Assembly: GCF_020171315.1 (NCBI RefSeq)
Contig: NZ_JAIUZP010000006.1
Coordinates: 310,001 to 374,000, forward strand
DNA: 64,000 bases
Direction of reading: 5' to 3'
From: Pseudooceanicola nanhaiensis
Lineage (GTDB): Bacteria; Pseudomonadota; Alphaproteobacteria; Rhodobacterales; Rhodobacteraceae
In this document: in pieces, positions 3,657 to 54,036 of the stretch
Layout: every line of letters starts with the position of its first letter
Position numbering within the stretch: position 1 is the first letter of the stretch
Program-made: the position numbers and the translations under genes
The notes under the pieces: model-generated
The model's database searches: none
The model's input: the letters and a program-made list of their open reading frames with translations, nothing else
Told to the model about the DNA's origin: nothing

Positions 3657-3667
3657 CGCCGCGCCCC

Positions 3668-3722
3668 CTCATCTTTCGCTCTGAAATATCCCTGCCGGAG
3701 GCCCCGTCCGCAGGACGGGCCC
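3668..3722. repeat. Intergenic repeat core (GCCTCCGGC...ATATTT family) with hairpin
   Basis: The reverse complement of the window's recurrent core lies at 3684-3702 with one mismatch (AAATATCCCTGCCGGAGGC), preceded by TCATCTTTC as in other copies. It is followed by the perfect stem CCCGTCC-GCA-GGACGGG (3703-3719). It fills the convergent junction between the acetyltransferase (+) and the glycosyltransferase (-), where it could end transcription from both sides. Confidence 0.75.
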
Positions 3723-3726
3723 TGCC

Positions 3727-4605
3727 TCAGATCGTGCCCGCGAACCGCTCCGGCAGGGTGAAGATACGCCCGTCCTCGGGCCGGTCGAACTGCCAGAACC
3801 CGGTGTCGCCGCGCGCCTTCCAGCTGCGGTGCATCGCCTTGCGCACGGGTCGCATGTCAAAGCCCTCCGCCTCCTCCAGCGCCTCGAAGGCCTCGAAGAC
3901 CGCCCGGTCCTCGCCGCGCGCCTCGGCAAACCAGTGGCGCCCGATGGAGGCCTCCTTGGGCGTCTCCACCCCTACCGCCTGCGTCACCGCGTTGCGCCGG
4001 TCCATGGCCGCGCAATAGGCGTCGAAATCGCAGAACTTCAGGTGGAAGAGATAGAGCTCGTCGGGGGTATACAGCGTCTTGTACTGGGTAAAATGCCCGC
4101 CGCGCGCGATCTTGGTCCCGGCCGAGATCACGCAGGGCTTGGAATAATGCGGCGCCAGCCGCACATGCCTGCGCGGCCCCAGCACGCGGTCCGTCACCGG
4201 CTCCGCCTCGCGGTCCAGCCGGTGAATCACCTCCAGCCCCAGCGGCGTCAGCACCCGGCGCGTCGGCGCTGCGCCGAGGTATCCCAGCAGGTCCTGCCCC
4301 GCCTCGGGATCGACCACCACAAGCTCATCCACGTCGCCCACGATGACATGGTCGTAATAGGCGTGCAGCCCCATGACGAGGTTGTTCAGGAGCCGCCACC
4401 GCTTCATGTCGAAGTTCTTGTGATGCGCGCCCGGGATGCCGATGATGTTGCAGCCCTCGGCGATCTCGGCCACCTGCGGGTCGCGGCCATGGGCAACGAT
4501 ATAGCAGTTCTCCCGCCCCAGTTGCGCGCCGTAATGCGCCAGCCAGAGCCGCAGGAAGAAGAAGTCGTCGCGCAGCATGGTGACGGCGGCGGCGGTGGAT
4601 TGCAT
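3727..4605 (-). CDS. Glycosyltransferase family 2-like protein
   Basis: A 292-residue protein resembling the GT2/GT92-like transferases common in Rhodobacterales surface-glycan loci. The N-terminus has the pattern VTMLRDDFFFLRLWLAHYG, equivalent to 'VKNEgpfLlEWiaYh' in related proteins of this window. The metal/nucleotide-sugar motif is VGDVDELVVVDP. Downstream, HFTQYKTLY and LFHLKFCDFDAY replace the NHYALRS block of the other members, so it is a divergent relative. It has no signal peptide or membrane helix. It is divergent from the sulfotransferase-like gene at 4691. Donor and acceptor are unknown. Confidence 0.8.
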   Translation of the reverse strand: MQSTAAAVTMLRDDFFFLRLWLAHYGAQLGRENCYIVAHGRDPQVAEIAEGCNIIGIPGAHHKNFDMKRWRLLNNLVMGLHAYYDHVIVGDVDELVVVDPEAGQDLLGYLGAAPTRRVLTPLGLEVIHRLDREAEPVTDRVLGPRRHVRLAPHYSKPCVISAGTKIARGGHFTQYKTLYTPDELYLFHLKFCDFDAYCAAMDRRNAVTQAVGVETPKEASIGRHWFAEARGEDRAVFEAFEALEEAEGFDMRPVRKAMHRSWKARGDTGFWQFDRPEDGRIFTLPERFAGTI

Positions 4606-4690
4606 CGGGAGGTCCTGTCAGGGGCCCTTGGGGGCGGTTTATTCTGCGGCGCGTGGACAAGTCTAACCCGGCCAGTGCTATAAGAGAATC

Positions 4691-5461
4691 GTGAATTTCG
4701 CCACGCCCTCCGCGGCCCCTGCGCCCCGCCTGCCCGACGGCTTTGCCGACAGCGGTCTGTTCCTGCGTGCAGGGCCCGTGCCGCCGACCCGCGTGCAGGT
4801 CATGGGCGAACGGTCTTCGGGGACGAACTTCCTCAAGCGGCTGATCGGGCGCAACACGCCGCTCACCCCGACGGAGGAACTGGGCTGGAAACACGGCGCG
4901 CCTGCGATAATCGCGATTCCCGCCGATCTGCTGGTGGTCGTCGCGGTGCGCAATGCCGCCGACTGGGCGCGCTCGATGCATGCGAAACCCTGGCACGCCA
5001 GCCCGGCGCTGCAGGCGCTCGACTTCCCGGCCTTCCTGCGCGCCGAATGGGACACGATCGCCGACCGGCCGCGCTACTTCGAGGGCCTCCCCGACAGCGC
5101 CATCGGCCAGCCGCTGCAGCCCGACCGCGATCCGCTGACCGGCGCGCGTCACGCGGACCTCTTCGCCCTGCGCCGCGCCAAGCTCACCGCCCACCTCAGC
5201 CTGCTGAACCGGGACTGCGCCCTCGCCGTCGTGCGCATGGAGACCGCCACCGCAGCGCCCGAGGCCCTGCTCGCGCAGCTCCGCGCCACCTACGCCTGGC
5301 CCGATGCCCCCTACCGCCCGGTGCACAAGCGCCTCGGCGCCAAGTTCAAGCCCGCGATCCCGGACCGCCCCGCCACGCCCGAGTGGTCGGAGGACGACCT
5401 TGCCCACCTGCGCGCCCGTGTCGACATGGCTCAGGAAGCCATGCTCGGCTACAGCTACTGA
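4691..5461 (+). CDS. Sulfotransferase-like P-loop protein
   Basis: A 256-residue protein. An N-terminal loop, VMGERSSGTNFLKRLIGRN, resembles the 5'-phosphosulfate-binding P-loop of PAPS-dependent sulfotransferases. A second strand, LLVVVAVRNAADWARSMH, fits the 3'-phosphate-binding segment (R..S pattern). The GTG start at 4691 is the first in-frame start, preceded by a weak AAGAGA. It sits head-to-head with a glycosyltransferase, suggesting both act on the same glycan. True sulfotransfer activity is inferred; a kinase-like use of the P-loop is not excluded. Confidence 0.7.
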   Translation: MNFATPSAAPAPRLPDGFADSGLFLRAGPVPPTRVQVMGERSSGTNFLKRLIGRNTPLTPTEELGWKHGAPAIIAIPADLLVVVAVRNAADWARSMHAKPWHASPALQALDFPAFLRAEWDTIADRPRYFEGLPDSAIGQPLQPDRDPLTGARHADLFALRRAKLTAHLSLLNRDCALAVVRMETATAAPEALLAQLRATYAWPDAPYRPVHKRLGAKFKPAIPDRPATPEWSEDDLAHLRARVDMAQEAMLGYSY

Positions 5462-5478
5462 GCCCGCGCAGAGGGTTT

Positions 5479-5546
5479 CATCTTTCCAGAACTACTCCGG
5501 GAACATTGGCCCCGCTACGGGGCCAAGGGGGCAGAGCCCCGCTCCG
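5479..5546. repeat. Intergenic palindromic repeat, GGGGCCAA subfamily
   Basis: CATCTTTCC and ACTACTCCGGGAA are followed by the stem TTGGCCCC-GCTAC-GGGGCCAA (5506-5526) and GGGGGCAGAGCCCC. The same order of blocks occurs, reversed, at 15062-15168 and 21809-21916. It lies in the convergent junction between the sulfotransferase gene and the tRNA-Asp pair. Confidence 0.75.
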
Positions 5547-5671
5547 TCTCGCGATCACGCACCTCGGACCTCATTGGCCCCCGCCCCGGACAGGCAGAAC
5601 GGACCGCAGATCACCCGCGATCACCGCACCACCCCCTCTGAACGGATCACTCTACTCGCCGCCAAGCGCCC

Positions 5672-5715
5672 AAAATTCTTCGAAGAATTTTGCAAAGAAT
5701 TTTCGAAAATTCTTT
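5672..5715. repeat. Double AT-rich palindrome (AAGAATTTTCGAAAATTCTT family)
   Basis: Two perfect palindromes sit two bases apart: AAAATTCTTCGAAGAATTTT (5672-5691) and a 22-base one centred on TTTTCGAAAA (5694-5715). Each would form a hairpin flanked by T/A runs on both strands. This is the shape expected of a bidirectional terminator, placed downstream of both the sulfotransferase gene (+) and the tRNA genes (-). Close copies lie at 10951, 14954 and 21701. Confidence 0.85.
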
Positions 5716-5758
5716 GTGCCGCCCCGAAGGGCTTTTCTCTGCATTTTCGAGGGGAAAG

Positions 5759-5835
5759 TGGCGCGGTTGACGGGGCTCGAACCCGCGACCCCCGGCGTGA
5801 CAGGCCGGTACTCTAACCAACTGAGCTACAACCGC
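5759..5835 (-). tRNA. tRNA-Asp (GTC), distal copy
   Basis: A 77-base cloverleaf read on the minus strand. Acceptor stem GCGGTTG pairs with CAACCGC, followed by discriminator G and an encoded CCA. The anticodon stem is CCGGC/GCCGG around loop CTGTCAC, anticodon GTC. The T-arm is GCGGG-TTCGAGC-CCCGT. It is identical to the copy at 5867-5943 and lies 31 bases downstream of it, so both probably come from one precursor. Confidence 0.98.
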
Positions 5836-5866
5836 GCATCGCGCAGGACATTCAGACAAGGTAGCG

Positions 5867-5943
5867 TGGCGCGGTTGACGGGGCTCGAACCCGCGACCCC
5901 CGGCGTGACAGGCCGGTACTCTAACCAACTGAGCTACAACCGC
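5867..5943 (-). tRNA. tRNA-Asp (GTC), proximal copy
   Basis: Identical in all 77 bases to the copy at 5759-5835, with the same acceptor, anticodon GTC and encoded CCA. It is the promoter-proximal member of the tandem pair. The spacer to the next copy is 31 bases. Confidence 0.98.
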
Positions 5944-5979
5944 TCGCTACCCGTCCGGTGTGTCCCGAACGTGAGGGGC

Positions 5980-6008
5980 GTTCTAGGGATAACCCCGGAC
6001 AGCGTCAA
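5980..6008 (-). promoter_or_regulatory. Probable promoter of the tRNA-Asp pair
   Basis: On the minus strand TTGACG (6008-6003) is followed, after 17 bases, by TAGAAC (5985-5980). These resemble housekeeping -35 and -10 elements. Transcription would begin near 5973, about 30 bases before the first tRNA. Nothing else is seen in 5944-6149. Confidence 0.5.
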
Positions 6009-6149
6009 GCGCGAAGTATCAACTTTGTGACCCCGTTTTGCACTTTCTTTGCCCCCGCCCGTCAGGCCCTTACGTCACCTTGATAATCCTCCCTCGGGGG
6101 CCGTCCCGGTGCCCCTGCGGCAGGTCGCGCGGCACCGACCGTGCCTCAC

Positions 6150-7100
6150 TCAAGCCGGGCGTTTCGGCCCCGGCAAGGGCACGAATTCGGCGTCGTCCCC
6201 GGGCGGCAGGCGGAAGCGGCCATGGGTCCAGTCCCCGGCGCGCCAGGCTTCCTTGGCGGCCTCGATCTTCTCCTTCGAGGAGGAGACGAAGTTCCACCAG
6301 ATGTACCTGTGCCCCTCCAGCACATCGCCCCCCAGCAGGAGCAGGTGCGCGCCCTCCGGACCGGCCTGCAGGGTCAACCGGTCGCCGGGACGGAAGACCA
6401 CCATCCGCCCGGCCTCGAAGCTGTCGCGCCCGATGCGCAGGCCGCCCTCCAGCACGTAGGCCGCGCCATCCTCCTGCTCCTCGGGGGAGGGAATCGCCGC
6501 GCCGGGCGCCAGCCGGGCCTCGGCGAAGAAGGCGTTCACCGGCAGTGCCACCGGCGAGGCCGCGCCCCAGGCCGCGCCGAGGACCACGCGCACCTCCTTG
6601 CCCTCACCCTCCAGCACCGGCAGGTCCGCCCGCCCGGCATGGAGGAACTGCGCCGGGTCGTCCTCCTGCGCCTCGGGCAGGCCCAGCCATGTCTGCACCC
6701 CGAAGAGCGGATTTGGCTGCTGGCGCATCGTCCCGTCCATCCGCTCGGAGTGGGTGATTCCATTGCCCGCCAGCATCCAGTTCACCGCCCCCGGTTCGAT
6801 CCACTGGTCGGTCCCGAGGGAATCACGGTGATGCAGGCGCCCCTTCAGCAGGTAGGTGATCGTGCCGAGCCCGATGTGCGGGTGCGGGCGCACGTCGATC
6901 CCCTGCCCGGTCAGGAATTCCACCGGGCCCATCTGGTCGAAAAAGATGAAGGGGCCGACCATCCGCCGATGGGCCACCGGCAGGGCGCGCCGCACCTCGA
7001 AGCCGCCGATGTCACGCGCCCGCGGCACGATGACGGTCTCGATGCTGTCGACGGCATCGCCGATCGGAATGCTCGGATCGAGGATCGGATTCCAGCTCAT
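6150..7100 (-). CDS. Pirin family protein (bicupin)
   Basis: A 316-residue bicupin of the pirin/YhhW family. The N-terminal cupin carries the metal ligands in RPHPHIGLGTITYL, and HRDSLGTDQWIEPGAVNWM and GITHSER follow, all typical of the family. Some pirins are quercetin dioxygenases and others act as redox-sensing regulators; the role here is open. ATG at 7100 is preceded by AGGAGG seven bases away, so an in-frame ATG upstream at 7172 is not used. It appears monocistronic. The second-domain sequence IWWNFVSSSKEKIEAAKEAW is typical of the longer pirins. Confidence 0.92.
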   Translation of the reverse strand: MSWNPILDPSIPIGDAVDSIETVIVPRARDIGGFEVRRALPVAHRRMVGPFIFFDQMGPVEFLTGQGIDVRPHPHIGLGTITYLLKGRLHHRDSLGTDQWIEPGAVNWMLAGNGITHSERMDGTMRQQPNPLFGVQTWLGLPEAQEDDPAQFLHAGRADLPVLEGEGKEVRVVLGAAWGAASPVALPVNAFFAEARLAPGAAIPSPEEQEDGAAYVLEGGLRIGRDSFEAGRMVVFRPGDRLTLQAGPEGAHLLLLGGDVLEGHRYIWWNFVSSSKEKIEAAKEAWRAGDWTHGRFRLPPGDDAEFVPLPGPKRPA

Positions 7101-7293
7101 GAAGGCCTCCTGTGGCGCCCGGGGATACGTCCCCTGTGCCTTCGAAGGTAACATCTCCGCCCTCCGCGCCAATTGCGCAGCCGCGCAGGGCAGTGAGGTC
7201 CGAGCCGCACGCAGGCGCTGCCCCGGTCAGGGGGTGGGCTCTGTAAAGGGATCGCGGACCGTCTCGCGCCGCAGGGAGCGGCCCCGGGGGCGG

Positions 7294-7638
7294 TCAGTGT
7301 GTCGTGGCGTTGGAGAAGAGGTTCACCACAAGAATCCCCGCCACGATCAGCATCAGGCCGATCACTGCCGGCAGGTCGAGCTTCTGACCGAAAACCACCA
7401 GCCCGATGGCCGAGACCATGAGGATGCCCAGACCACTCCAGATCGCATAGGCCACGCCCACCGGCATGGTCTTCAGCACCTGCGCGAGGAAGTAGAAGGC
7501 CGCCCCGTAGCAGACCGCCACCATCACAGTGGGCACCAGCCGGGTGAACTGTTGCGAGGCCTGAAGAAAGGTCGTGCCCACGACTTCGAAGGCCACGGCA
7601 ATGGCAAGGGTCAGATAGGTGCCGAGGGTCGCGCTCAT
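7294..7638 (-). CDS. Small multidrug resistance (SMR) efflux protein
   Basis: A 114-residue four-helix inner-membrane protein of the EmrE/QacE family, which exports lipophilic cations in exchange for protons. Helix 1 contains the essential Glu in AIAVAFEVVGTTFLQAS, and helix 3 carries the AYAIWSGLGI signature. Length matches the family (about 105-115). The start is supported by GGAGACACCC upstream on the minus strand. Unlike paired SMR systems, no second SMR subunit adjoins it, so it probably acts as a homodimer. Confidence 0.93.
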   Translation of the reverse strand: MSATLGTYLTLAIAVAFEVVGTTFLQASQQFTRLVPTVMVAVCYGAAFYFLAQVLKTMPVGVAYAIWSGLGILMVSAIGLVVFGQKLDLPAVIGLMLIVAGILVVNLFSNATTH

Positions 7639-7822
7639 GGGCGGGTGTCTCCTTCACGAGGGGGGAAGGCCGCGCCCGTCGCGCGGCCCGGAAAGGCTAG
7701 ACGGTAATTTTCACGGAGTCGATTCCCGCAGGCGCTCGCCGGGCGTGCGCAGGGGCACAGAGGCAAAACGCTCGCCGCGGTGCAAGCGCCGCCCTCTCGA
7801 CCCGTCCGCGCCGCCCTCCTTT

Positions 7823-7924
7823 GCACCGGCCGCCCCGCCTTCCGCCACACGTTCCGGCATCGGCCGGCCACGCCTTCCGCCCCCTCTCTCGCACCGGCCG
7901 ACCACGCCCTGCGCCACCCTCTCT
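7823..7924. repeat. Three imperfect 34-bp tandem repeats
   Basis: Units start at 7823, 7857 and 7891 with GCACCGGCCG, GCATCGGCCG and GCACCGGCCG, and continue with a CCACGCC..CCGCC pattern. They lie in the 352-base divergent gap (7639-7990) between the SMR gene and the small membrane protein gene. No promoter or gene could be picked out there. Their phase of 34 is not a multiple of three, so they are unlikely to be coding. Confidence 0.6.
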
Positions 7925-7990
7925 GGCCATCCGCGCCCGTGCCGGGCATGCTGCCCCCGAGAAGTGCCGTCCATACCGCCGGAGCCGCCG

Positions 7991-8344
7991 ATGCCCGCCC
8001 CCTTCCCCCTGATCCGACGCCTGTGGCGCCAGCATCCCGTCGCCCTGCTTGTCTTCGTGGCGGCCTTCGTGCTGGTGCTCTTCTTCGCGCTCCGCATGAC
8101 GGTCTTTGCCCTGCACTGGTCCGATCCGGGGCAGCGGTCGGTCCAGCCCCAGCCCTGGATGACGCCGGGCTATGTCGCGCATTCCTGGCACCTGCCGAAG
8201 GAGGAGGTGTTCCGGCTCCTCGCCCTCGACCCGCCCCCGGACCGGCGCGTCACGCTGGAGGAGATCGCCCGCGCCAAGGGCGTGCCGCTGAGCCAGCTTC
8301 TCGACGATCTGAACGACGCATTGCAGGCGCAGGCGCCGCGATGA
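7991..8344 (+). CDS. Membrane-anchored hypothetical protein coupled to DedA
   Basis: A 117-residue protein with one N-terminal membrane helix (about residues 18-38, VALLVFVAAFVLVLFFAL). Its soluble domain includes WMTPGYVAHSWHLPKEEVFRLL and ends in a helical ARAKGVPLSQLLDDLNDAL block. No characterised family is recognised. The stop overlaps the DedA start by four bases (ATGA at 8341-8344), so the two are almost certainly translated together. A helper role for the DedA transporter is an inference from that coupling. Confidence 0.75.
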   Translation: MPAPFPLIRRLWRQHPVALLVFVAAFVLVLFFALRMTVFALHWSDPGQRSVQPQPWMTPGYVAHSWHLPKEEVFRLLALDPPPDRRVTLEEIARAKGVPLSQLLDDLNDALQAQAPR

Positions 8345-9021: not shown

Positions 9022-9092
9022 TCGCCCCCTCTCCCCGGGGAAGCGCCGCCTGCCCCATTGTACCGCGGCCCGCGCGGGTCCATATCTTGGGC

Positions 9093-9788: not shown

Positions 9789-9861
9789 GCCGGCCCCCAC
9801 CGGCACCCCTCCCCGAGACGGCGGCCCTCACCCGCCCGACACGACAGCGACAGGACCCCTC

Positions 9862-10863: not shown

Positions 10864-10950
10864 CCCCGACCGAAGCCCCAAATCCTTCATCTTTCCGCAA
10901 ATACTCACCGCGCGCCCCTCACCGGGCGCGCAACGCCTCTGCATCGCCAC

Positions 10951-10995
10951 CCAAGAATTTTCGAAAATTCTTGGGAAAATTCTTCGAAGAATTTT
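10951..10995. repeat. Double AT-rich palindrome
   Basis: A perfect 24-base palindrome (10951-10974, CCAAGAATTTTC and its complement) is followed one base later by AAAATTCTTCGAAGAATTTT (10976-10995). It is in the convergent junction between the LLM (+) and PIN (-) genes. A decayed relative of the CATCTTTCC block lies just before, at 10886-10907. Confidence 0.85.
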
Positions 10996-11051
10996 CGGCG
11001 CGCGTCTGAACGCCTGCGCCCACCGGCAACCGACCCGCTTGCGGCAGGCCC

Positions 11052-11095
11052 CCGGAATTTTCGAAAATTCCGGTCCGTTTTCTTCGAAGAAAACG
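11052..11095. repeat. Second pair of palindromes in the LLM/PIN junction
   Basis: A perfect 22-base palindrome with ends CCGG and centre TTTTCGAAAA (11052-11073) is followed two bases later by CGTTTTCTTCGAAGAAAACG (11076-11095). Both keep the TTCGAA centre of the main family but with changed arms. They sit 21 bases from the end of the PIN gene. Confidence 0.85.
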
Positions 11096-11115
11096 AGGAG
11101 TGCCGCACCGCTGGC

Positions 11116-14930: not shown

Positions 14931-14953
14931 CGGATCAGCCGCGGCGCGTAACC

Positions 14954-14998
14954 CCAAGAATTTTCGAAAATTCTTGGTAAAATTCTTCGAAGAATTTT
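14954..14998. repeat. Double AT-rich palindrome
   Basis: The 24-base palindrome found at 10951 recurs exactly (14954-14977), followed by T and AAAATTCTTCGAAGAATTTT (14979-14998). It lies 24 bases after the edd stop, in the convergent junction with the Lrp regulator. Confidence 0.85.
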
Positions 14999-15061
14999 CT
15001 GCGCCCGTGGGAGGTGTTTGGTCCCTTGGTGGGGGCCAGGCCGCCTGCTGCGGGCGCAGAT

Positions 15062-15168
15062 CGGAAAATGCGCATTTTCCGGACCGGACTTTTCGAAAAG
15101 TCCGGGGGGCTCTGCCCCCTTGGCCCCTTTGGGGCCAATTCCCCCGGAGTATTTCGGGAACGATGAAG
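15062..15168. repeat. Train of five palindromes, GGGGCCAA subfamily
   Basis: Back-to-back units: CGGAAAATGCGCATTTTCCG (15062-15081); a 22-base palindrome CCGGACTTTTC plus complement (15084-15105); GGGGGC-TCT-GCCCCC (15105-15119); TTGGCCCC-TTT-GGGGCCAA (15120-15138); then CCCCCGGAGTATTTCGGGAA and GATGAAG. The same order recurs at 21809-21916. The unit ends 12 bases before the Lrp gene stop. Confidence 0.88.
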
Positions 15169-15179
15169 CGGTAGGTCGC

Positions 15180-21067: not shown

Positions 21068-21613
21068 ATAGCTCGCAGACCTCATAATGCGCCCCCGACG
21101 CGCGACAATGGCCCCCGTGTTAACGACCGTATCCGTGCGCCCGAAATTCGGCTGATTGGCGCGGAAGGCGAAAACGTCGGTGTGGTTCCCCCGGCACGTG
21201 CCCTCGCCATGGCGGAAGAAGCTGGCCTCGATCTGGTCGAAATCTCCCCCAATGCGGTCCCGCCGGTCTGCAAGATCATGGATTTCGGCAAGTTCAAATA
21301 CGAACAGCAGAAACGCGAATCCGAAGCCCGCAAGAAGCAGAAGACGATCGAGGTGAAGGAGGTGAAGTTCCGCCCCGGCACCGATGTGCACGACTATCAG
21401 GTCAAGATGCGCAACGTCCTCAAGTTCCTTGAAGGCGGCGACAAGGTGAAGATCACCCTGCGCTTCCGCGGCCGCGAGATGGCGCACCAGAACCTCGGCC
21501 GTGAGCTTCTGGAACGCGTTGCAGAGGACGTGAAGGAAGTCGGCAAGGTCGAGAACATGCCGAAGATGGAAGGCCGCCAGATGGTCATGATGATCGGGCC
21601 GAGCGCGAAGTAA
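21068..21613 (+). CDS. infC: Translation initiation factor IF-3, ATA start
   Basis: Binds the 30S subunit and rejects non-canonical start codons. The frame gives the conserved N-terminus [20 protein letters not shown] (residues 2-21), then [18 protein letters not shown], the linker [16 protein letters not shown] and the C-domain [14 protein letters not shown]. Translation must begin at or before ATA 21068 to include this block; AAGGAC lies seven bases upstream, and no ATG, GTG or TTG lies in frame between. This gives 181 residues, the normal length. Non-AUG infC starts (AUU in E. coli) allow autoregulation. Starting at GTG 21182 would delete the N-domain. Confidence 0.93.
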
Positions 21614-21635
21614 GCGCTGCCCGCCATCTCCAAGC

Positions 21636-21661
21636 AAGGCCCGGCATCGTCCGGGCCTTTT
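21636..21661 (+). terminator. Rho-independent terminator after infC
   Basis: A perfect 9-bp stem AAGGCCCGG-CATCGT-CCGGGCCTT ends in TTTT. It lies 22 bases after the infC stop and before the palindromic repeat island. Confidence 0.88.
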
Positions 21662-21700
21662 GCATGTCTGGCCCCCCGCACCATCGCCCGCGTGGGGCAC

Positions 21701-21745
21701 CCAAGAATTTTCGAAAATTCTTGGCAAAATTTTTCGAAAAATTTT
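21701..21745. repeat. Double AT-rich palindrome
   Basis: The 24-base palindrome of 10951 and 14954 recurs (21701-21724), followed by C and AAAATTTTTCGAAAAATTTT (21726-21745). The second half carries a symmetric pair of changes (C to T and G to A), so the palindrome is kept by compensation. It lies in the infC(+)/coxS(-) convergent junction. Confidence 0.86.
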
Positions 21746-21808
21746 GGCCGCGTGGGGGTGCGGGATGGGCCCGGTCAACGGGGATCACACCCTCTCCGCT
21801 GGCGCTAT

Positions 21809-21916
21809 CCGGAAAATTCGAATTTTCCGGTCCGGACTTTTCGAAAAGTCCGGGGGGCTCTGCCCCCTTGGCCCCTGCGGGGCCAATTCCCCCGGAGGAT
21901 TTCGGGAAAGATGAAG
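21809..21916. repeat. Train of palindromes, second full copy
   Basis: The same block order as 15062-15168: a 22-base palindrome around AAAATTCGAATTTT (21809-21830), CCGGACTTTTC and complement (21832-21853), GGGGGC-TCT-GCCCCC (21853-21867), TTGGCCCC-TGC-GGGGCCAA (21868-21886), then CCCCCGGAGGATTTCGGGAA and GATGAAG. Loops differ while stems are kept. Confidence 0.88.
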
Positions 21917-21968
21917 GGCGCCGAAGCGCCCCAGTCTTTTCCGTCGTAGCCTCGCGCCGAGGTGGGTC

Positions 21969-22454
21969 TCAGGCGGGCATCAGCTCTGCCACGTCCTGCC
22001 CGGAGGCGGCGTAGATCGCCTTGACGATATTGTGGTAGCCGGTGCAGCGGCAGATATTGCCGTGCAGATGGTGCCGGATCTCGGCCTCGGTGGGCTTGGG
22101 GTTGGCCTTCAGCAGCGATTCCGCCGCCATGATCATCCCCGGCGTGCAGAAGCCGCACTGCAGCCCGTGGTGTTCCTTGAAGGCGGCCTGCACCGCGCTC
22201 AGCTCGCCCTCGGGGCTGGCGATCCCCTCGATCGAGGTGACGTCCGCGCCCGCAGCCTCGACCGCGAACATGGTGCAGCTCTTCACCTGAAGCCCGTCCA
22301 CATGCACCGTGCAGGCGCCGCACTGCGAGGTGTCGCAGCCCACATGGGTGCCGGTCAGGCCGAGGCTGTCGCGCAGGAACTGCACCAGAAGGGTGCGGTT
22401 CTCGACCTCACCCGAAACCTCATTCCCGTTCACTGTCATCGAGATCGTCGGCAT
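21969..22454 (-). CDS. CoxS-like [2Fe-2S] subunit of a molybdenum hydroxylase
   Basis: A 161-residue protein of the xanthine oxidase/CO dehydrogenase small-subunit family. It carries two [2Fe-2S] sites: the plant-type [16 protein letters not shown] with a fourth Cys in VKSC, and the helical site [11 protein letters not shown] plus [16 protein letters not shown]. It would pass electrons from a Mo-cofactor large subunit to a flavin subunit. Neither CoxL nor CoxM is adjacent; the gene is followed by the infC repeat island. AGGAAGGAC precedes the ATG. The substrate (CO, an aldehyde or another compound) cannot be told. Confidence 0.93.
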
Positions 22455-37396: not shown

Positions 37397-37400
37397 TGCA

Positions 37401-37540
37401 TTTCCGTTTCGAAAATATCCCCGCCGGAGGCCTGAAATCTCTGCGCGCCCTCTCTGACCGGAGCCCCGGTCGCAGAGGCGCTCAAGAGAGCCGAAGCTGC
37501 GCTTCGGAAGCCTCCGGCGGGGATATTTGGAAAACGGAAA
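37401..37540. repeat. MITE-like inverted-repeat element between pyrC and pyrE
   Basis: A left arm (37401-37431) and right arm (37510-37540), each 31 bases, are reverse complements at 28 of 31 positions. Both end inward with the window's core repeat (GCCTCCGGCGGGGATATTT). The 78-base centre contains smaller hairpins such as GAAGCTGCGCTTC. It starts four bases after the pyrC stop. The outer TTTCCGTTTCGAAAATATCC also begins the element at 45521. The RNA could fold into a long hairpin between two co-oriented pyr genes. Confidence 0.85.
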
Positions 37541-37568
37541 TCGACGAGAGATCTCAAGGAGACATGCG

Positions 37569-44130: not shown

Positions 44131-44163
44131 CCCGTCAGCCGGGCGTCCAGCCGCGCGGTCGGA

Positions 44164-44196
44164 GCCTCCGGCGGGGATATTTGGGAACAGTGGATG
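44164..44196 (+). repeat. Single arm of the core repeat, ending in a start codon
   Basis: GCCTCCGGCGGGGATATTT (44164-44182) is followed by GGGAACAGTGGATG, the same as the left arm of the element at 53802. No opposite arm is nearby. The ATG at its end (44194) is the apparent start of the PqiA-like gene. Confidence 0.8.
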
Positions 44197-44649
44197 GCAA
44201 GAATGACACGTCTTCTGACCATCGCGAATGCGGCGCTGCTGCTGCTCTATCCGATCGCCTGGATGGCACCGCTGGCCCGCGCGGGCGTGCTGCCCTTCTT
44301 CGGGCTGAGCGAGATCTCGGTCCTTTCGGGCCTGCGGGCGCTCTGGCCTTCCGATCCTCTGCTGGCCCTGCTGGTGGCGGTCTTCGCCCTCGTAGCGCCA
44401 ATGGCCAAGACACTGGCATTGCTCATGATTCACCTCGAACGCGCGCCGGTCTGGCTGCTCGGCCCGGTGAGTGTGCTAGGGCGGCTCGCCATGGCGGATG
44501 TCTTCCTCGTGGCGCTCTATATCACCCTCGCCAAGGGCATCGGCCTGGGCCACGTGGAAAGCGCCTGGGGCCTCTGGCTCTTCACCTTCTGCACCCTCGC
44601 TTCTCTGGGCATTTCAAGCCTCACCAAGAAAATCATTAATAAAAAGTGA
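44194..44649 (+). CDS. PqiA-like (paraquat-inducible A) single-domain membrane protein
   Basis: A 151-residue protein equal to about one half of PqiA. Four membrane helices are seen; FGLSEISVLSGLRALW, LALLVAVFALVAPMAKTLALLMIHL and GRLAMADVFLVALYITLAKG are the family signatures. The Cys pairs of full PqiA are absent. PqiA-type proteins pair with MCE-domain lipid carriers, which fits the neighbouring mlaE/mlaF. ATG 44194 lies in a copy of the intergenic repeat; ATG 44203 is an alternative. Confidence 0.8.
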   Translation: MARMTRLLTIANAALLLLYPIAWMAPLARAGVLPFFGLSEISVLSGLRALWPSDPLLALLVAVFALVAPMAKTLALLMIHLERAPVWLLGPVSVLGRLAMADVFLVALYITLAKGIGLGHVESAWGLWLFTFCTLASLGISSLTKKIINKK

Positions 44650-45511: not shown

Positions 45512-45520
45512 CCCCACCCG

Positions 45521-47066: not shown

Positions 47067-47120
47067 CGCGCGCGGTGACAGGCGCCGAGGCGCAGGGCCG
47101 ACAGCAAGGAACGGGGACAG

Positions 47121-47717: not shown

Positions 47718-47734
47718 TCACAGTATTGAACACC

Positions 47735-47767
47735 GTGCAATTGCACCCGGGGCCGTTGACCCCGGGT
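47735..47767 (+). promoter_or_regulatory. Two adjoining palindromes upstream of purF
   Basis: GTGCAATTGCAC (47735-47746) is a perfect 12-bp palindrome overlapping ACCCGGGG-CCGTTGA-CCCCGGGT (47745-47767), an 8-bp perfect stem. No T-run follows. They lie 90-122 bases before the purF start and could end cvpA transcription or act as an operator or leader hairpin. Confidence 0.4.
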
Positions 47768-47856
47768 CCGCGGACCCTTATGTGATCGTTTCGTGACACC
47801 TCGGTCCCTTGCCTCTACACTCAGGGCAAGGTCACGCTAGGATTCGGAGCTGCCCC

Positions 47857-49389
47857 TTGTCCCGCCAGATGCCCTCTGCCGCCAGCGAAACCACCGCTGG
47901 CAAATCTGCGTTCAATGACGACCATCTCGACGATTGCCTCCCTCGGCACCCGTTCGACGATGACAAGCTGAAGGAGGAGTGCGGCGTCTTCGGCGCGATC
48001 GGCCTCACGGATGCGTCAAACTTCGTGGCCCTCGGCCTGCACGCGCTGCAGCACCGCGGCCAGGAGGCGGGCGGCATCGTCTGCCACCACCCCGAGCACG
48101 GGTTCAACTCGGCCCGCCGCTTCGGTTACATCCGCGACAACTTCACCTCGCAATCGGTGATGGAAACCCTGCCCGGGCCGGTGGCCATCGGGCATGTGCG
48201 CTATTCCACCGCCGGCTCCAAGGGCGCCGCGCAGATCCGCGACGTGCAGCCCTTCTTCGGCGAATTTTCCATGGGCGGCGCGGCCATCGCGCACAACGGC
48301 AACATCACCAATGCCGAGGCCCTGCGCCGCGAGCTGATCGAGCGCGGTTCGATCTTCCAGTCCTCCTCGGACAGCGAATGCATCATCCACCTCATGGCGC
48401 GCTCGCTTCAGCGCGGCATCCCCGAGCGGATGGAAGACGCGCTGCGCCGGGTCGAAGGCGCCTTCTCGGTCGTGGCCATGACCGGCACGCAGCTGATCGG
48501 CGTGCGCGATCCTCTGGGCGTGCGGCCCCTCGTCCTCGGCAAGGTCGCCGATGGCTGGGTGCTCTCCTCCGAGACCTGTGCCCTCGACATCATCGGCGCG
48601 GAGCTCATCCGCGAGATCGAGCCCGGCGAGATGGTGGTGATCACCGAGAAGGGCATCGAGAGCCGCCGGCCCTTCCGCCCGCAGTCGCCGCGCTTCTGCA
48701 TCTTCGAGCATGTCTATTTCTCGCGTCCCGATTCGATCCTCGGCGGCCGCTCGGTCTATGAGACCCGTCGCCAGATCGGTGTCGAGCTGGCCCGCGAGGC
48801 CCCGGTCGAGGCCGACCTCGTCTGCCCCGTGCCCGACAGCGGCACCCCGGCGGCGATCGGTTTCGCCCATGAGAGCGGCATTCCCTACGGCATGGGGATC
48901 ATCCGGAACCAATACATGGGCCGGACCTTCATCGAGCCGACCGAGCAGATCCGGAACATGGGCGTGCGGCTGAAGCTGAACGTGAACCGCGCCCTGATCC
49001 AGGGCAAGCGGGTGATCCTCGTGGACGACTCGGTGGTGCGCGGCACGACCTCGCGCAAGATCAAGGAGATGATCCTCGACGCCGGCGCGGCCGAGGTCCA
49101 CTTCCGCATCGCCTCCCCGCCGACCGCGTGGCCCTGCTTCTACGGCGTGGACACCCCGCAGCGCGAGAAGCTGCTGGCAGCGACCATGTCCGAGGACGAG
49201 ATGCGCGATCACCTCGCGGTGGACAGCCTCAAGTTCATCTCGCTCGACGGCCTCTACCGCGCCGTTGGCGAGGCCAATGGCCGCAACAACAGCTGCCCGC
49301 AGTATTGCGACGCCTGCTTCTCGGGCGAATACCCGGTGGCGCCCTCCGACATGATCGAGAAGGGCTTCGAGCTGAAGGCCGCCGAGTAA
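47857..49389 (+). CDS. purF: Amidophosphoribosyltransferase
   Basis: First step of purine synthesis: PRPP and glutamine to phosphoribosylamine. 510 residues. The N-terminal nucleophile is Cys42 in KEECGVFGAIG after a propeptide, then HALQHRGQEAGGIV, VRYSTAG, and the PRPP motif KRVILVDDSVVRGTTSRKIKEMI. NSCPQYCDACFSGEYPV near the end resembles the [4Fe-4S] ligand region of the B. subtilis-type enzyme. TTG 47857 is chosen because GGAG lies seven bases before it; ATG 47869 has no ribosome site. A terminator follows. Confidence 0.95.
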   Translation: MSRQMPSAASETTAGKSAFNDDHLDDCLPRHPFDDDKLKEECGVFGAIGLTDASNFVALGLHALQHRGQEAGGIVCHHPEHGFNSARRFGYIRDNFTSQSVMETLPGPVAIGHVRYSTAGSKGAAQIRDVQPFFGEFSMGGAAIAHNGNITNAEALRRELIERGSIFQSSSDSECIIHLMARSLQRGIPERMEDALRRVEGAFSVVAMTGTQLIGVRDPLGVRPLVLGKVADGWVLSSETCALDIIGAELIREIEPGEMVVITEKGIESRRPFRPQSPRFCIFEHVYFSRPDSILGGRSVYETRRQIGVELAREAPVEADLVCPVPDSGTPAAIGFAHESGIPYGMGIIRNQYMGRTFIEPTEQIRNMGVRLKLNVNRALIQGKRVILVDDSVVRGTTSRKIKEMILDAGAAEVHFRIASPPTAWPCFYGVDTPQREKLLAATMSEDEMRDHLAVDSLKFISLDGLYRAVGEANGRNNSCPQYCDACFSGEYPVAPSDMIEKGFELKAAE

Positions 49390-49410
49390 GGCAGGTCGGA
49401 TATGATTGGA

Positions 49411-49436
49411 AAGGCGGCCCCCGGGGCCGCCTTTTC
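49411..49436 (+). terminator. Rho-independent terminator after purF
   Basis: Stem AAGGCGGCC / GGCCGCCTT with loop CCCCG and a TTTT run, 22 bases after the purF stop. Confidence 0.88.
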
Positions 49437-49991
49437 CGTTTTCCGGGGGCTGCTGCCGGCTGTAGAGACCGCCCGCCGCTCGGGGTGGGTTCCCCTGAGC
49501 AGGGTATCGGCCCACCCCAAAGCAGATGCACGACATTGAAGGGCACCGAACGCCCTCCTCCACGCGCGCTTTCCGCCCCAATGCGCCGCTTCGCGATCAA
49601 GATCTCCCAAGCATCTTCTCTGTCTCGCGCCAATGCCTGCCCACCGGCCTTCACATAGGGCAGCGCCGTCCCGCGGGGTGGCGCAATAGCGCCGCCCCCG
49701 GGGGGGGCGGGTCGGCGCTGCCCGGCCTCTCGGCCGGGCGGGACACACCGAGGGGACAGCGACTTGGCGCAAGACGGACGGTCGCGCACCCTCCTGTTCA
49801 TTCCATGAACTCTGCACAGCGCCTCGCGGCATTCAGCCAGCCCCCTGCGATAGCGCCACATCCCAAACCGGACAACGCCCCTTCCCCCAAACCGCGCCCC
49901 GCACACCACACCCGGCGCCCGCGTCGCCGCACCGCAGGCCGTGCCGCCTGTTTCACTTGACCCGGCGCATCAAACCGCGCAGATCCCGGCC
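49437..49991 (+). other. Gene-free 555-base gap
   Basis: Between the purF terminator and the SDR gene. It holds a G-run (GGGGGGGCGGG near 49700-49711) and low-complexity C-rich stretches. Open frames on both strands lack ribosome sites and recognisable domains. A promoter for the SDR gene must lie here but is not obvious. Confidence 0.45.
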
Positions 49992-50633
49992 ATGACTGAC
50001 CAGATCGCCCTCATCACCGGTGCCTCGCGCGGGCTCGGCGCGGCGCTTGCCGCCGCTCTCGCGCCGACCCATCACATCGTCGCCGTCGCCCGCACCGTGG
50101 GCGGTCTCGAAGCCCTCGACGACCGGATCAAATCCGCAGGCGGCAGCGCCACGCTGGCCCCCATGGACATCACCAACCGGGATGCCATGGCCCAGCTCTG
50201 CCGCTCGGTCTATGACCGCTGGGGCAAGATCGACCTCTGGTGCCACACCGCGATCTCGGCTCCGCCGCTTTCGCCCGCAGCCCATATCGACGCCAAGGAC
50301 TGGGACAAGGCGGTCGAGTGCAACGTGACCGCGCTCGGCGTGCTGGTGCCCTATGTCGCGCCCCTGCTGGGGACCGAGGGCAAGGCGATCTTCTTCGACG
50401 ATCCCGTCGTCGCGACCCGCTTCCACGGGGCCTATGGCGCCACCAAGGCCGCGCAGATCGCGCTTGCCCGCTCGTGGCAGGCCGAAACCGCCGCCACCGG
50501 TCCCGAGGTCCATGTGCTGACGCCCCTGCCGATGCCGACCGCCCTGCGGGGCCGTTTCCACCCGGGCGAGGACCGCGAGGCGCTCTCCGATCCCGACAGC
50601 GAAGCCGCCCGGCTGCTGCCCAAGTTCACCTGA
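49992..50633 (+). CDS. SDR family oxidoreductase with altered active site
   Basis: A 213-residue short-chain dehydrogenase/reductase. The cofactor loop is ALITGASRGLGAALAAAL (TGxxxGxG), the Asn is in VECNVTALGV, and Y-x-x-x-K is YGATK. The catalytic Ser expected 12-13 residues before the Tyr is replaced in IFFDDPVVATRFHGAY by Phe/Asp, so classical reduction may be impaired. NADP preference is suggested by VARTVGG after strand 2. ATG 49992 follows CCCGGCC with no good ribosome site. The substrate is unknown. Confidence 0.82.
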   Translation: MTDQIALITGASRGLGAALAAALAPTHHIVAVARTVGGLEALDDRIKSAGGSATLAPMDITNRDAMAQLCRSVYDRWGKIDLWCHTAISAPPLSPAAHIDAKDWDKAVECNVTALGVLVPYVAPLLGTEGKAIFFDDPVVATRFHGAYGATKAAQIALARSWQAETAATGPEVHVLTPLPMPTALRGRFHPGEDREALSDPDSEAARLLPKFT

Positions 50634-50873
50634 AAAGACGCTGGCGGGCGCCGGAAACGGCCCCCGCCCTCGCACCGAACCGGCCCGCGCACGACCGCCA
50701 CCGAAGGGCGTGACACGCCGCACGCGGCCCGCCGCAAACCGCCCTGCAAACCCGCGCTTACGCGCCCCCGGACCGGCTTTTATGCCACGCCCGTCGCGGC
50801 AGCGCCTGCCACGGCTTGCCCCCCTACCGGCCCTCGCTTATGCAGGGGCCACCCCACGACGGAAGGCGAATTC

Positions 50874-51656
50874 ATGCGTATTCTCATTACCAATGACGAC
50901 GGGATCAACGCACCGGGTCTGAAGACGCTGCACGCCATCGCCAAGACGCTCGCCGGCCCCGAGGGCGAGGTCTGGACCGTCGCCCCCGCCTTCGAACAAT
51001 CGGGCGTGGGCCACATGATTTCCTACACCCGCCCGATGATCGTCTCCAAGATGGGCGAGCGCCGCTTCGCCGTGGAAGGCGCCCCCGCCGATTGTGTCCT
51101 CGCCGGGCTGCACGACGTGCTCAACGGCCAGCACGTGGACCTGATCCTCTCGGGGGTGAACTACGGCAACAACTCGGCCGAGAACGCGCTCTATTCAGGC
51201 ACCCTCGGCGGTGCCATCGAAGGCGCGCTGCAGGGCATCCCCTCCATGGCGCTGTCGCAGTTCCTCGGGCCGGACAATTTCAACATCGACGATCCGTTCG
51301 AGGCCGCGGCCCAGCATGGCGCCGCCGTGGTCCGCAAGGTGCTGGACCACGGGCCCGCGGATGACGGCGATTACCGCCTGTTCTACAACATCAACTTCCC
51401 GCCGGTGCCCGGGGCCTCGGTCAAGGGCGTGCGCGCCTCGGCCCAGGGCTTCCGCCGCTACACCAAGTTCGGGATCGAGCCGCATCTGTCGCCCTCGGGC
51501 CGCCGTTTCCTCTGGGTCAAGGGCGGCCAGCAGGGCGAGAAGACCGCGCCCGGCACCGATGCCCATGACAACCTCGAAGGCTATGTCTCGGTCACGCCGA
51601 TGCGGGCAGATTTCACCGCCCATGACATGCTCGCCGCGCTGAAGGCCATCGAATGA
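50874..51656 (+). CDS. surE: 5'-nucleotidase SurE
   Basis: A metal-dependent nucleoside monophosphatase, 260 residues. The N-terminal metal motif is [18 protein letters not shown], then [58 protein letters not shown] (Asn and Ser ligands) and [21 protein letters not shown] precedes the ATG. It overlaps pcm by four bases; the surE-pcm-nlpD order is the same as in enterobacteria, where the unit helps stationary-phase survival. Confidence 0.97.
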
Positions 51657-52297
51657 CCGACGCAGCCGCCGAGCGGAAGATGCAGTTTCTCTTCGCCCTG
51701 CGCTCGCGCGGGGTCACCGACAAGCGCGTGCTCAACGCCATGGAGAAGATCGACCGCGGGGCCTTCATCCGCGGCATCTTCGCTGAACGCGCCTATGAGG
51801 ACACGCCGCTGCCGATCGCCTGCGGCCAGACCATCAGCCAGCCCTCCGTGGTGGGCCTGATGACCCAGGCGCTGGAGGTCCACCCCCGGGACAAGGTGCT
51901 GGAGGTCGGCACCGGCTCGGGCTACCAGGCGGCGATCCTCAGCCAGCTGGCGCGCCGGGTCTATACCGTGGACCGCCATCCCCGGCTCGTGCGCGAGGCG
52001 CAGGGCGTCTTCGACGCGCTCTCGATCGCCAATATCACCACGTTTACCGCCGACGGCTCGCACGGGCTGCCCGACCATGCGCCCTTCGACCGCATAATCG
52101 TGACCGCCGCGGCCGAGGATCCGCCGGGGCCGCTCTTGGCCCAGCTCAAGATCGGCGGTATCATGGTGCTGCCCGTGGGCCAGTCGGACACGGTGCAAAG
52201 CCTGATCCGCGTGCGCCGCACCGAGACCGGGCTGGAATACGACGAACTGCGCTCGGTCCGCTTCGTGCCGCTCCTGGAAGGGCTCGGCCGGGACTGA
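51653..52297 (+). CDS. pcm: Protein-L-isoaspartate O-methyltransferase
   Basis: Repairs damaged isoaspartyl residues using SAM. 214 residues. The substrate loop [21 protein letters not shown], the SAM motif [32 protein letters not shown], and [27 protein letters not shown] are as in the family. Its ATG lies in the surE stop (ATGA), so translation is coupled. The NlpD-like lipoprotein gene follows after 182 bases. Confidence 0.96.
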
Positions 52298-52479
52298 GAC
52301 CGCCGGACAGGCGGCAGGGCGCGGATTGCAGACGGCGGGTGCGCCCGTCGGCCCGACCTGGCCGCCACGGCCGTATGTCGGTGCGAGAGGCAGAGGCGCG
52401 ACGCGCCACGGACAGGAGCAGACCCGGCCCGCGCGAGGGCCGGCATCCCCCGCAAGACGGGGGTGGCGAGGGATCGAAC

Positions 52480-53733
52480 ATGACCATGATTGCAGGGCGT
52501 CCGAGCCCCAAGACCCGGCGCTACGGCGCCTTCACGCTGGCCACGGCCGCCCTGGCCCTGATGGCCGGCTGCACCGAGCCGCTGGACTTCGACATGCGCG
52601 GCCATCTGGGCGCGTTCAACACCTCCGAAGCGGCCCGGAACGCCTCGATGTCGCGGCCCCGGCCGGACAACCGCGGGATCATCTCCTACCCGAATTACCA
52701 GGTCGCCGTGGCCCGCCAGGGCGACAGCGTGGCCCAGCTTGCCGCCCGCGTCGGCACCTCGGCCGAGGACCTCGCCCGCTACAACGGGCTGCAGACCGGC
52801 GACACGCTGCGCGAGGGCGAGGTCATCGCCCTGCCGACCCGCGTCGCCGAACCCTCGCCCGCGACCGGCGCCCTCGGCACCGGCCCGATCCTGCCCGCCG
52901 TGGACGTGGCCTCCGTCGCGGGCCGTGCCCTCGACGAGGCCAGCGCGGTTCAGACCACGACCCTCGATCCCGCGCCCGTGGCCGCGGCCCCGGCACAGGC
53001 CCCCGCCACGCCCGCAGCAGGCCAGAGCGGCGATGAGCCAATCCGCCACAAGGTCCAGCGCGGCGAAACCGCCTTTACGGTCTCGCGGCTCTACAAGGTC
53101 TCCGTGCGGTCGCTGGCGGAGTGGAACGGCCTCGACGAGAATTTCACCATCCGCGAGGGGCAGTACCTGCTGATCCCGCCGGTGGGCGCGCAAGCCGCCC
53201 CCGCCGCAACGACCCGGACCGAGGCCCCGGGCGTGGGCTCGCCCACGCCGGTGCCGCCGAGCTCGGCCGAGCCCCTGCCCGCCGAGAAGACCCTGCCGCA
53301 GGCCGAGGCCCGCGCCCAGGCGAGCCAGGTGGCCGCCGCGCCCGACCTTTCGGGCGGGACGAGCGTGACCACCCCCCGTGCCGGTGCCGAAATGGTCTAT
53401 CCTGTGAAGGGCAGCATCATCCGCACCTACACCAAGGGCAAGACGGACGGGATCGACATCGCCGCCCAGCCGGGCAGCTCCGTCGTCGCCGCCAAGGCGG
53501 GTTCGGTCGCGGCCATCACCTCGGACAGCGACAACGTCCATGTGATCGTGCTGCGGCACGCCGATGGGCTGCTGACGATCTATTCCAACGTGACCGGCAT
53601 CGCCGTGAAGGAAGGCCAGCAGGTCTCCCAGGGCGCCAAGATCGCGGAAATCCGGCCCGGCGCCTCGCCCTACGTGCACTTCGAAGTGCGCCGCGGGATG
53701 AACAGCACCGACCCGATGCCCTTCCTGGACTGA
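52480..53733 (+). CDS. nlpD: NlpD-like lipoprotein: two LysM domains and degenerate M23 domain
   Basis: A 417-residue outer-membrane lipoprotein. The lipobox LALMAG-Cys31 ends the signal. Two LysM domains bind peptidoglycan (about 71-118, VARQGDSVAQLAARVGTSAEDLARYNGLQ; and about 188-231, HKVQRGETAFTVSRLYKVSVRSLAEWNGL). The M23 domain (about 305-415) keeps the fold but has lost zinc ligands: TDGIDIAAQPGSS lacks the His of HxGxD, though VHFEVRRG remains. As for E. coli NlpD, it probably activates an amidase rather than cutting itself. GAGGGA precedes the ATG. Confidence 0.93.
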   Translation: MTMIAGRPSPKTRRYGAFTLATAALALMAGCTEPLDFDMRGHLGAFNTSEAARNASMSRPRPDNRGIISYPNYQVAVARQGDSVAQLAARVGTSAEDLARYNGLQTGDTLREGEVIALPTRVAEPSPATGALGTGPILPAVDVASVAGRALDEASAVQTTTLDPAPVAAAPAQAPATPAAGQSGDEPIRHKVQRGETAFTVSRLYKVSVRSLAEWNGLDENFTIREGQYLLIPPVGAQAAPAATTRTEAPGVGSPTPVPPSSAEPLPAEKTLPQAEARAQASQVAAAPDLSGGTSVTTPRAGAEMVYPVKGSIIRTYTKGKTDGIDIAAQPGSSVVAAKAGSVAAITSDSDNVHVIVLRHADGLLTIYSNVTGIAVKEGQQVSQGAKIAEIRPGASPYVHFEVRRGMNSTDPMPFLD

Positions 53734-53801
53734 GCGCCCTGCGGGCGCACATGATGTTTGGCCGGGCCTCCGGCCCGGCGCTGCCGGCCCTGACGGGCCG
53801 G

Positions 53802-54002
53802 GCCTCCGGCGGGGATATTTGGGAACAGTGGATGAAGAGGATTTATTAACCTTCATCCCCCAAGGTCATGAGGCGGTACAGGCGGGGACGCCGATGGCCG
53901 TAACAGTGGATGCGCCCCTGTCTCATCGGCAGGGGCGTGTTTCGTTGGAGGTTCCGAGTGGAGCCCTCTCATCCACTGTTCAGAAATATCCCCGCCGGAG
54001 GC
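53802..54002. repeat. MITE-like element of about 200 bp at a convergent junction
   Basis: A left arm (53802-53840) and right arm (53964-54002) of 39 bases are reverse complements, with two mismatches and a one-base slip near the inner end. Each outer end is the core GCCTCCGGCGGGGATATTT, then GAACAGTGGATGA. The 123-base centre holds CGCCCCTG..CAGGGGCG followed by TGTTT (53919-53943), a terminator-like hairpin. It lies between nlpD (+) and the DUF815 gene (-). No open frame or transposase is inside. Confidence 0.88.
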
Positions 54003-54036
54003 TTGAAATCTATGCTCCGCCCCAACGGCGGGTGGC

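Follow-up and report, generated by a model that had tools for sequence, protein, structure and literature searches.

Our analysis of a 64,000-nucleotide stretch of the Pseudooceanicola nanhaiensis genome (assembly GCF_020171315.1, contig NZ_JAIUZP010000006.1, positions 310,001 to 374,000; the whole stretch is called the window below, and features are given in its own coordinates) uncovered a dispersed repeat, the twin, made of two perfect 22-bp palindromes that lie 0-2 nt apart with their centers 23 bp apart. Twins mark the 3' sides of genes, and their arms vary between genera while complementarity is kept. Tentatively, we read the twin as an element like the repetitive extragenic palindromic (REP) sequences, one that would be transcribed as two stacked hairpins delimiting or protecting mRNA segments in either direction. 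The genome measures 4.8 Mb in 30 contigs and the window has a GC content of 68%; genes were called with a codon-usage gene caller made for this analysis and with ARAGORN.

Mirror symmetry and spacing stay constant in the twin, and its sequence can vary. Among neighboring TTCGAA-centered palindromes, 70 of the 74 pairs spaced 18-28 bp apart in 798 kb of P. nanhaiensis DNA, and 63 of 68 pairs at 54 loci of other genomes, stand at 23 bp, and one first-order Markov copy of each set contained no such pair. A pair-independent sample of 54 stretches, fetched only by an exact match to one 24-bp palindrome, gave the same picture. With a second palindrome defined by at least 8 of 9 pairs, 51 of the 54 loci carried one at exactly 23 bp on one side; of the remaining three, two had the partner at 24 bp and one had it at 23 bp with 7 of 9 pairs. 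At the other offsets from 14 to 40 bp, none of the 108 sides reached 8 of 9 pairs, apart from two at 24 bp. The arms of this second palindrome are very varied: cells altered in both partners numbered 36, where shuffles gave 8.5, and 94.4% of cells were paired, in a compensation test that took the side with the better palindrome (an earlier pair count was circular, its rows having been chosen for palindromy). In P. nanhaiensis, where 109 twins were counted in 1.03 Mb, many consist of the same half-arms swapped (CCAAGAATTTTCGAAAATTCTTGG and AAAATTCTTCGAAGAATTTT), and a second subfamily carries CCGG clamps. The ends of the units are mostly CAA..TTG, GAA..TTC or CCGG (93 distinct twins, by eye). 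The central two bases are non-palindromic in 59 of 324 centers, the stems have a median GC content of 32% in DNA that is mostly 60-70% GC, and none of 118 TTCGAA palindromes falls in coding DNA. A row of three GC-rich palindromes spaced 23 and 22 bp apart was also observed in Nioella ostreopsis (L136:6284-6352).

Two hairpins are the predicted minimum-energy fold of all seven twins in the window, with z-scores of -3.1 to -4.1. The twin at 5671..5715 reads B then A on the plus strand (A and B being its two units) and lies where a plus-strand gene and a minus-strand tRNA-Asp gene end towards each other (z -3.5). The order is A then B at 10952..10996 (z -4.1), 14955..14999 (z -3.2) and 21702..21746 (z -3.4), the last with a compensated change in the B arm relative to the other window copies. 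Members of the CCGG-clamped subfamily are found at 11052..11096 (z -3.1), at 15061..15105, where one center is TGCGCA (z -3.9), and at 21809..21853 (z -3.7).

The placement of twins relative to gene orientation is not random. The genome-wide count proposed in the preliminary description of this DNA was carried out on 1.03 Mb (the window and 58 stretches picked around matches, gaps of at least 50 bp). Twins occupied 40 of the 126 convergent gaps, 32 of the 344 tandem ones and 2 of the 146 divergent ones; the loci were mostly found through their twin, so these fractions are not prevalences and only the comparison between classes is valid (convergent versus divergent, p 5e-13; convergent versus tandem, p 3e-8). 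In 93 loci from other genomes, twins occupied 20 of 62 convergent, 71 of 288 tandem and 2 of 79 divergent gaps. Fifteen of these loci come from Maritimibacter alkaliphilus, probably a sister species, with 5 of 15, 10 of 39 and 0 of 14 gaps in the same order. Excluding it left 78 loci with 15 of 47 convergent, 61 of 249 tandem and 2 of 65 divergent gaps; here the deficit in divergent gaps persisted (convergent versus divergent, p 3e-5), and convergent and tandem gaps gave an odds ratio of 1.44 (p 0.28). Since divergent gaps are avoided everywhere and the convergent excess is found in P. nanhaiensis only, the family marks gene 3' sides, and the convergent preference is a local accent of this genome. 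A convergent-specific function was rejected, as the other genomes hold twins in 61 tandem against 15 convergent gaps. The idea of dispersed palindromes that read alike on either strand, are tied to gene 3' sides and hardly occur in divergent gaps is supported, with "convergent" too narrow a word for a family that occupies mostly tandem gaps elsewhere.

In these tandem gaps the twin follows the upstream gene closely. The 63 tandem twins of the 78 loci start at a median of 10 nt past the stop codon in gaps with a median length of 91 bp, and 44 of the 63 gaps are no longer than 120 bp. Same-strand flanks include rpoB and rpoC in two genomes, nuoI and a CMD-domain protein, hmgA and a GST-type protein, and coaBC and dUTPase; in one ABC-transporter cluster, twins stand both between the solute-binding protein and a permease and between a permease and the UgpC-type ATPase. 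The assignments of rpoB, rpoC, nuoI, hmgA, coaBC and UgpC pass NCBIfam cut-offs, and Pfam is the basis for naming the solute-binding protein and the permeases. Together with the fold z-scores, these flanks fit a hairpin between co-transcribed cistrons, co-transcription being judged from gene identity and the short gaps. At some junctions with both flanks homologous across genera, for example rpoB/rpoC (L203, L217) and the one after nuoI (L085, L112 versus L188), the arms are wholly different, which led us to reject conservation of the sequence as such; other homologous junctions across genera have identical arms. The window junction starting at 14931 was also considered as an orthologous site and set aside: the gene there is a member of the dihydroxy-acid/6-phosphogluconate dehydratases, and an eda-like gene follows it in 18 of the 20 genomes compared within the genus, so the junction is not orthologous.

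To look at one junction independently of the twin, the rpoB-rpoC gap was sampled by position. Among 53 genomes with an rpoC match, 50 loci were read and 39 gaps delimited (11 were left out, their rpoC start or rpoB stop not being placed), of which 35 were at least 30 nt long; the sample includes both genomes with the known rpoB/rpoC twin. A stem of at least 7 bp was present in 21 of the 35 gaps, against 6.1 expected from shuffles. The twelve mismatches in these stems, read on the sense strand, comprised 7 G-U, 0 A-C and 5 others; given this excess of G-U over A-C, these hairpins appear to be under selection as sense RNA, with the twin as one of several unrelated solutions. By eye, three of the gaps (L249, L266, L269) hold two adjoining hairpins, at least one with a non-palindromic loop. 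Four gaps from other genera (L251, L257, L259, L280) hold GTAGGGTGGG- or GTAGGGTGCGTG-type hairpins that resemble GTAG-tagged REPs.

In the mechanism that we tentatively propose, transcription from either side would yield two back-to-back stem-loops. The hairpin pair would not halt RNA polymerase completely, but would block 3'-to-5' exonucleases and delimit mRNA segments, as REP/palindromic units do, so that upstream cistrons could be stabilized apart from downstream ones, for example the binding protein before the permease or rpoB before rpoC. Palindromy would let the element serve both converging transcripts alike. The element has multiplied to more than 100 copies in P. nanhaiensis and a sister, partly into gaps with an existing terminator, so some copies may be passive. 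Should twins generally protect segments as hairpin pairs, they would offer a visible map of how operons of this family are divided into mRNA parts that decay separately; ordinary terminators are difficult to recognize in such GC-rich genomes.

Several observations weigh against this hairpin model. AT-rich stems are odd for a stability barrier. A stem of at least 7 bp is missing from fourteen of the 35 rpoB-rpoC gaps, so that junction can do without a hairpin. Behind infC, the twins of P. nanhaiensis follow a GC stem and a run of T's, where little RNA is expected, and the twin family is missing from most other members of the genus. The gap fractions, as said, come from loci found mostly through the twin itself. 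Above all, the 84 distinct twins in tandem gaps, which had been selected for Watson-Crick pairing, gave on the sense strand 7 G-U, 5 A-C and 14 other mismatches in 1512 cells, so that G-U does not clearly exceed A-C as it does in the rpoB-rpoC hairpins in general. Such a G-U share is below that expected of an ordinary RNA helix, and the pattern points to a symmetry that is needed on both strands or at the DNA level. Counts from a relaxed set (tandem: 6 G-U and 7 A-C in P. nanhaiensis, 8 G-U and 13 A-C in other genomes) were set aside because half-matches contaminate it. The question of RNA or DNA is the main reason why our confidence in the RNA reading is limited. The G-U test itself is a cheap check of which molecule is selected for any palindromic repeat.

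A possible alternative is that the palindrome acts as double-stranded DNA or as a cruciform, with a protein recognizing the dyad or the structure, or with supercoil-driven extrusion, at two dyads placed 23 bp (about two helical turns) apart, and with position relative to transcription being secondary. The near-perfect Watson-Crick symmetry with very little G-U, the exact phasing and the AT-rich arms would all suit it, and the order of A and B is not significantly tied to transcription (15:12 in P. nanhaiensis, p 0.70; 16:29 in other genomes, p 0.07). However, arms that change freely and yet stay complementary are not needed for plain dimer binding, 59 of the 324 centers are non-palindromic, and twins keep away from divergent gaps, where a DNA site could equally well lie. 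We consider a DNA-level role unlikely. A bolder proposal, possible but doubtful, is that the twin is a cis element across Rhodobacteraceae defined by geometry and not by sequence, with two mirror-symmetric 22-bp units phased at 23 bp, retained at shared operon junctions of different genera, including rpoB/rpoC, and with nearly every arm base changeable in pairs. If true, some factor would have to recognize paired hairpins or paired cruciforms, on RNA or on DNA, whatever their sequence. Similarity-based searches, by which most repeat families are found, would overlook any element with such arm turnover.

The distribution of twins across genomes bears on their origin. The names attached to 54 exact matches belong to Rhodobacteraceae/Rhodobacterales (NCBI now places some of the genera in Roseobacteraceae), except for one metagenome-assembled genome labelled Exiguobacterium profundum and one labelled Pseudomonadota. 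The former (isolate SSD5, 4.26 Mb; L107) has its twin between homologues of Rhodobacter-type locus genes and is probably a mislabelled genome. The exact 16-bp core was found in 24 of 295 genomes of the family, P. nanhaiensis included, with 51 copies in P. nanhaiensis and between 1 and 9 in each of the others. When 92 twins were used to build a covariance model, it gave matches in at least 34 of 100 family genomes, again including P. nanhaiensis, a lower bound since no more than 61 candidates were scored in each; among 115 genomes drawn from across the class, P. nanhaiensis alone had a match. The twin is thus, as far as sampled, confined to one family. Within the genus, counting both strands and with 150 candidates scored at most, P. 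nanhaiensis had at least 150 matches; of the 17 other genomes, one had at least 149, one had 3 and 15 had none. Matches were also present in 13 plasmid records, all from Leisingera. Two of these plasmids are annotated, and their matches fall in a convergent gap in one case and in a tandem gap of 79 bp in the other.

The amplification in just these two congeners would be expected of a selfish repeat resembling REPs or miniature inverted-repeat transposable elements (MITEs), spread by some agent and surviving at gene ends where insertion is least harmful, with incidental effects on RNA. The infC gap points the same way, since this convergent gap is 355 bp long in P. nanhaiensis, whereas three relatives that share the gene pair and have no twin show lengths of 98, 117 and 126 bp; against this, two further twin-free relatives also have long gaps there (496 and 307 bp). 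Of 20 genomes from the genus, P. nanhaiensis included, 18 have no twin after infC in the stretch examined. In the infC gap of one congener (L319, genome G412), the first twin is replaced by a sequence that fits the loss of one 23-bp unit between the two TTCGAA centers, leaving a direct repeat in place of a palindrome. A purely selfish origin is also at odds with the sharing of twin-bearing junctions between genera, with compensated changes in the arms and with conservation above that of the surrounding spacer. In 13 gaps compared between P. nanhaiensis and its near relative M. alkaliphilus, hairpins that had not been used to find the locus were identical at 460 of 484 positions (a figure that includes one false pair, the first P. 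nanhaiensis twin of L049), against 3163 of 3697 for the rest of the gaps and 3702 of 3900 for the adjoining 150-nt gene ends, so that the twin is more conserved here than its spacer. Furthermore, the Y1 tyrosine transposase family PF01797 (Y1_Tnp) had 0 matches in the P. nanhaiensis genome, a search positive in 5 of 14 control genomes, and mobilization by a REP-associated tyrosine transposase was rejected on this ground. That result, with the changed arms at the same junctions across genera, also speaks against the transposase acting in trans that had been suggested in the preliminary description; as only 2 of the 18 searched genomes of the genus show amplification, a spreading agent of another kind may be at work. 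On the whole, a selfish repeat appears an improbable account of the twin.

The twins are also not obligate terminators, to judge from their sequence and surroundings. In 102 of 120 tandem twins, the 8 nt past the second hairpin contain 0-1 T, so the T-tract is absent. The rpoB and rpoC genes are generally co-transcribed, which makes obligatory termination at the twin between them unlikely, and twins are likewise found after nuoI and within the ABC-transporter cluster. At infC the twins lie beyond a canonical-looking intrinsic terminator (GC stem and TTTT, 21636..21661 on the plus strand, between infC and the first twin, by eye); in the 20 genomes of the genus, P. nanhaiensis included, a terminator after infC is clear by eye in 17 and doubtful in L327, L331 and L333. 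A strict terminator rule found a canonical terminator at 65 of 496 gene ends without a twin and at 10 of 112 ends before a twin, with 9 more within 150 nt. Under this rule, which misses the infC terminator and so gives upper figures for terminator-less ends, 93 of 112 twin-facing ends in P. nanhaiensis DNA have no canonical terminator within 150 nt, but twin-free ends lack one about as often (431 of 496). Despite the convergent and tandem placement, these 93 ends and the mention in PMC2267715 that the bacterial interspersed mosaic elements (BIMEs) of E. coli are transcriptional attenuators as well, we regard the proposal that twins are bidirectional transcription terminators or attenuators, also made in the preliminary description, as very unlikely.

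The window holds further palindromic repeats besides the twins. Its 42 gaps of at least 50 bp were searched for the twin, for a TTGGCCCC..GGGGCCAA block and for GCCTCCGGC[A/G]GGG; all 6 convergent gaps held such a repeat, as did 2 of the 29 tandem gaps and none of the 7 divergent ones, a skew with a hypergeometric p of ~5e-6 (post hoc arithmetic). Gene calling gave the same six convergent junctions as the preliminary description, the presence of palindromes in all of them was confirmed, and the counts of four junctions with the TTCGAA pair and three with the block were reproduced. Two junctions (14931 and 21614) do carry both elements in the same order, twin then block, as had been described; a third, at 5462, also has both, with the block first. 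Of three tandem gaps said to contain repeats, only two were found (37397-37568 and 44131-44202), and the repeats, called related at the time, form three sequence families with no relation demonstrated. Sites of AATTTTCGAAAATT with up to 3 mismatches number 8, against 0.20 in shuffles, and GCCTCC.. sites 6, against 0.02. The known twin is estimated by extrapolation to occupy ~7% of convergent gaps genome-wide, a lower bound, which makes the window a dense spot for twins.

The block of the second family lies at 5506..5526, 15120..15138 and 21868..21886, and in the 1.03 Mb of P. nanhaiensis DNA it occurs in 5 convergent, 3 tandem and 0 divergent gaps. The third family is represented by GCCTCCGGCAGGGATATTT (one mismatch) at 3684..3702 on the minus strand and by GCCTCCGGCGGGGATATTT, which has 30 copies genome-wide with up to 1 mismatch (17 convergent, 13 tandem, 0 divergent), 10 of the 13 tandem copies being oriented with the genes. 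In the window, GCCTCCGGCGGGGATATTT forms the left (37413..37431, minus strand) and right (37510..37528, plus strand) arms of an inverted pair in one tandem gap, stands at 44164..44182 (plus strand) in another, and is found in a convergent gap at 53802..53820 (plus strand) with its inverted partner at 53984..54002 (minus strand). Inverted pairs of it, with starts 54-182 bp apart, were observed in five places of the genome (those in the window at 37400-37541 and 53802-54002) and look like MITEs or REP doublets. One congener (L305) carries, between edd and eda, a CTTCATCTTTCC..AAATACTCCCGCCGGAGGC that is related to GCCTCCGGCGGGGATATTT. A separate sequence, TTCATCTTTCC (up to 1 mismatch), is a strand-specific 3' motif: of 995 P. 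nanhaiensis genes, 25 have it within 120 nt downstream in sense and 5 in antisense, and 3 have it upstream.

Compared with known systems, the twins most resemble REP sequences in the wide sense. In several genomes, REPs are found chiefly in unidirectional and convergent gaps between open reading frames, near 3' ends (PMC3733652), E. coli REPs are classed as 3'-terminal or operon-intergenic (PMC12306157), and families of double-hairpin repeats such as EFA-1 and Pae-1 exist (PMC2267715). Twins agree with the wide-sense description of REPs and palindromic units both in form (palindromes of 20-40 bp, high copy number, extragenic) and in placement (unidirectional and convergent gaps, close to 3' ends, rarely divergent). 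Intrinsic bidirectional terminators, in turn, share with them the inverted repeats in convergent gaps, but twins lack the T-tract and also stand between genes expected to be co-transcribed. In Rfam, only two tRNAs of the window reach the gathering score, and membership in an Rfam family was rejected since the twin region 21600-21980 gave 21 matches at E <= 10, all below gathering. The twin element did not appear in any title or abstract listed in searches of a collection of open-access papers.

Like twins, enterobacterial REP/palindromic units and BIMEs are short dispersed palindromes, often paired, extragenic, within operons and at operon ends and mostly not divergent, as PMC3733652 and PMC12306157 describe their distribution; in contrast, twins show compensated arm differences from copy to copy and from genus to genus, and they are AT-rich, perfect zero-spacer dyads at a fixed 23 bp (a comparison by description). 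Members of the GTAG- and CGTC-tagged REP superfamilies are also palindromes near 3' ends, single or as dimers, and CGTC families have no dedicated transposase either (PMC3733652), but no terminal GTAG or CGTC tag was seen by eye on the 22-bp units of the 93 distinct twins, which places them outside these superfamilies. With EFA-1 and Pae-1, which were defined by clustering and hidden Markov models within genomes (PMC2267715), twins share two hairpins predicted side by side and repeated within a genome, a likeness in description. A strict geometry with freely turning-over, compensated arms is apparently undescribed, and the family-wide spread, together with the missing REP tags and Y1 transposase, sets the twins further apart from these systems; they most likely work as REP-like paired RNA hairpins.

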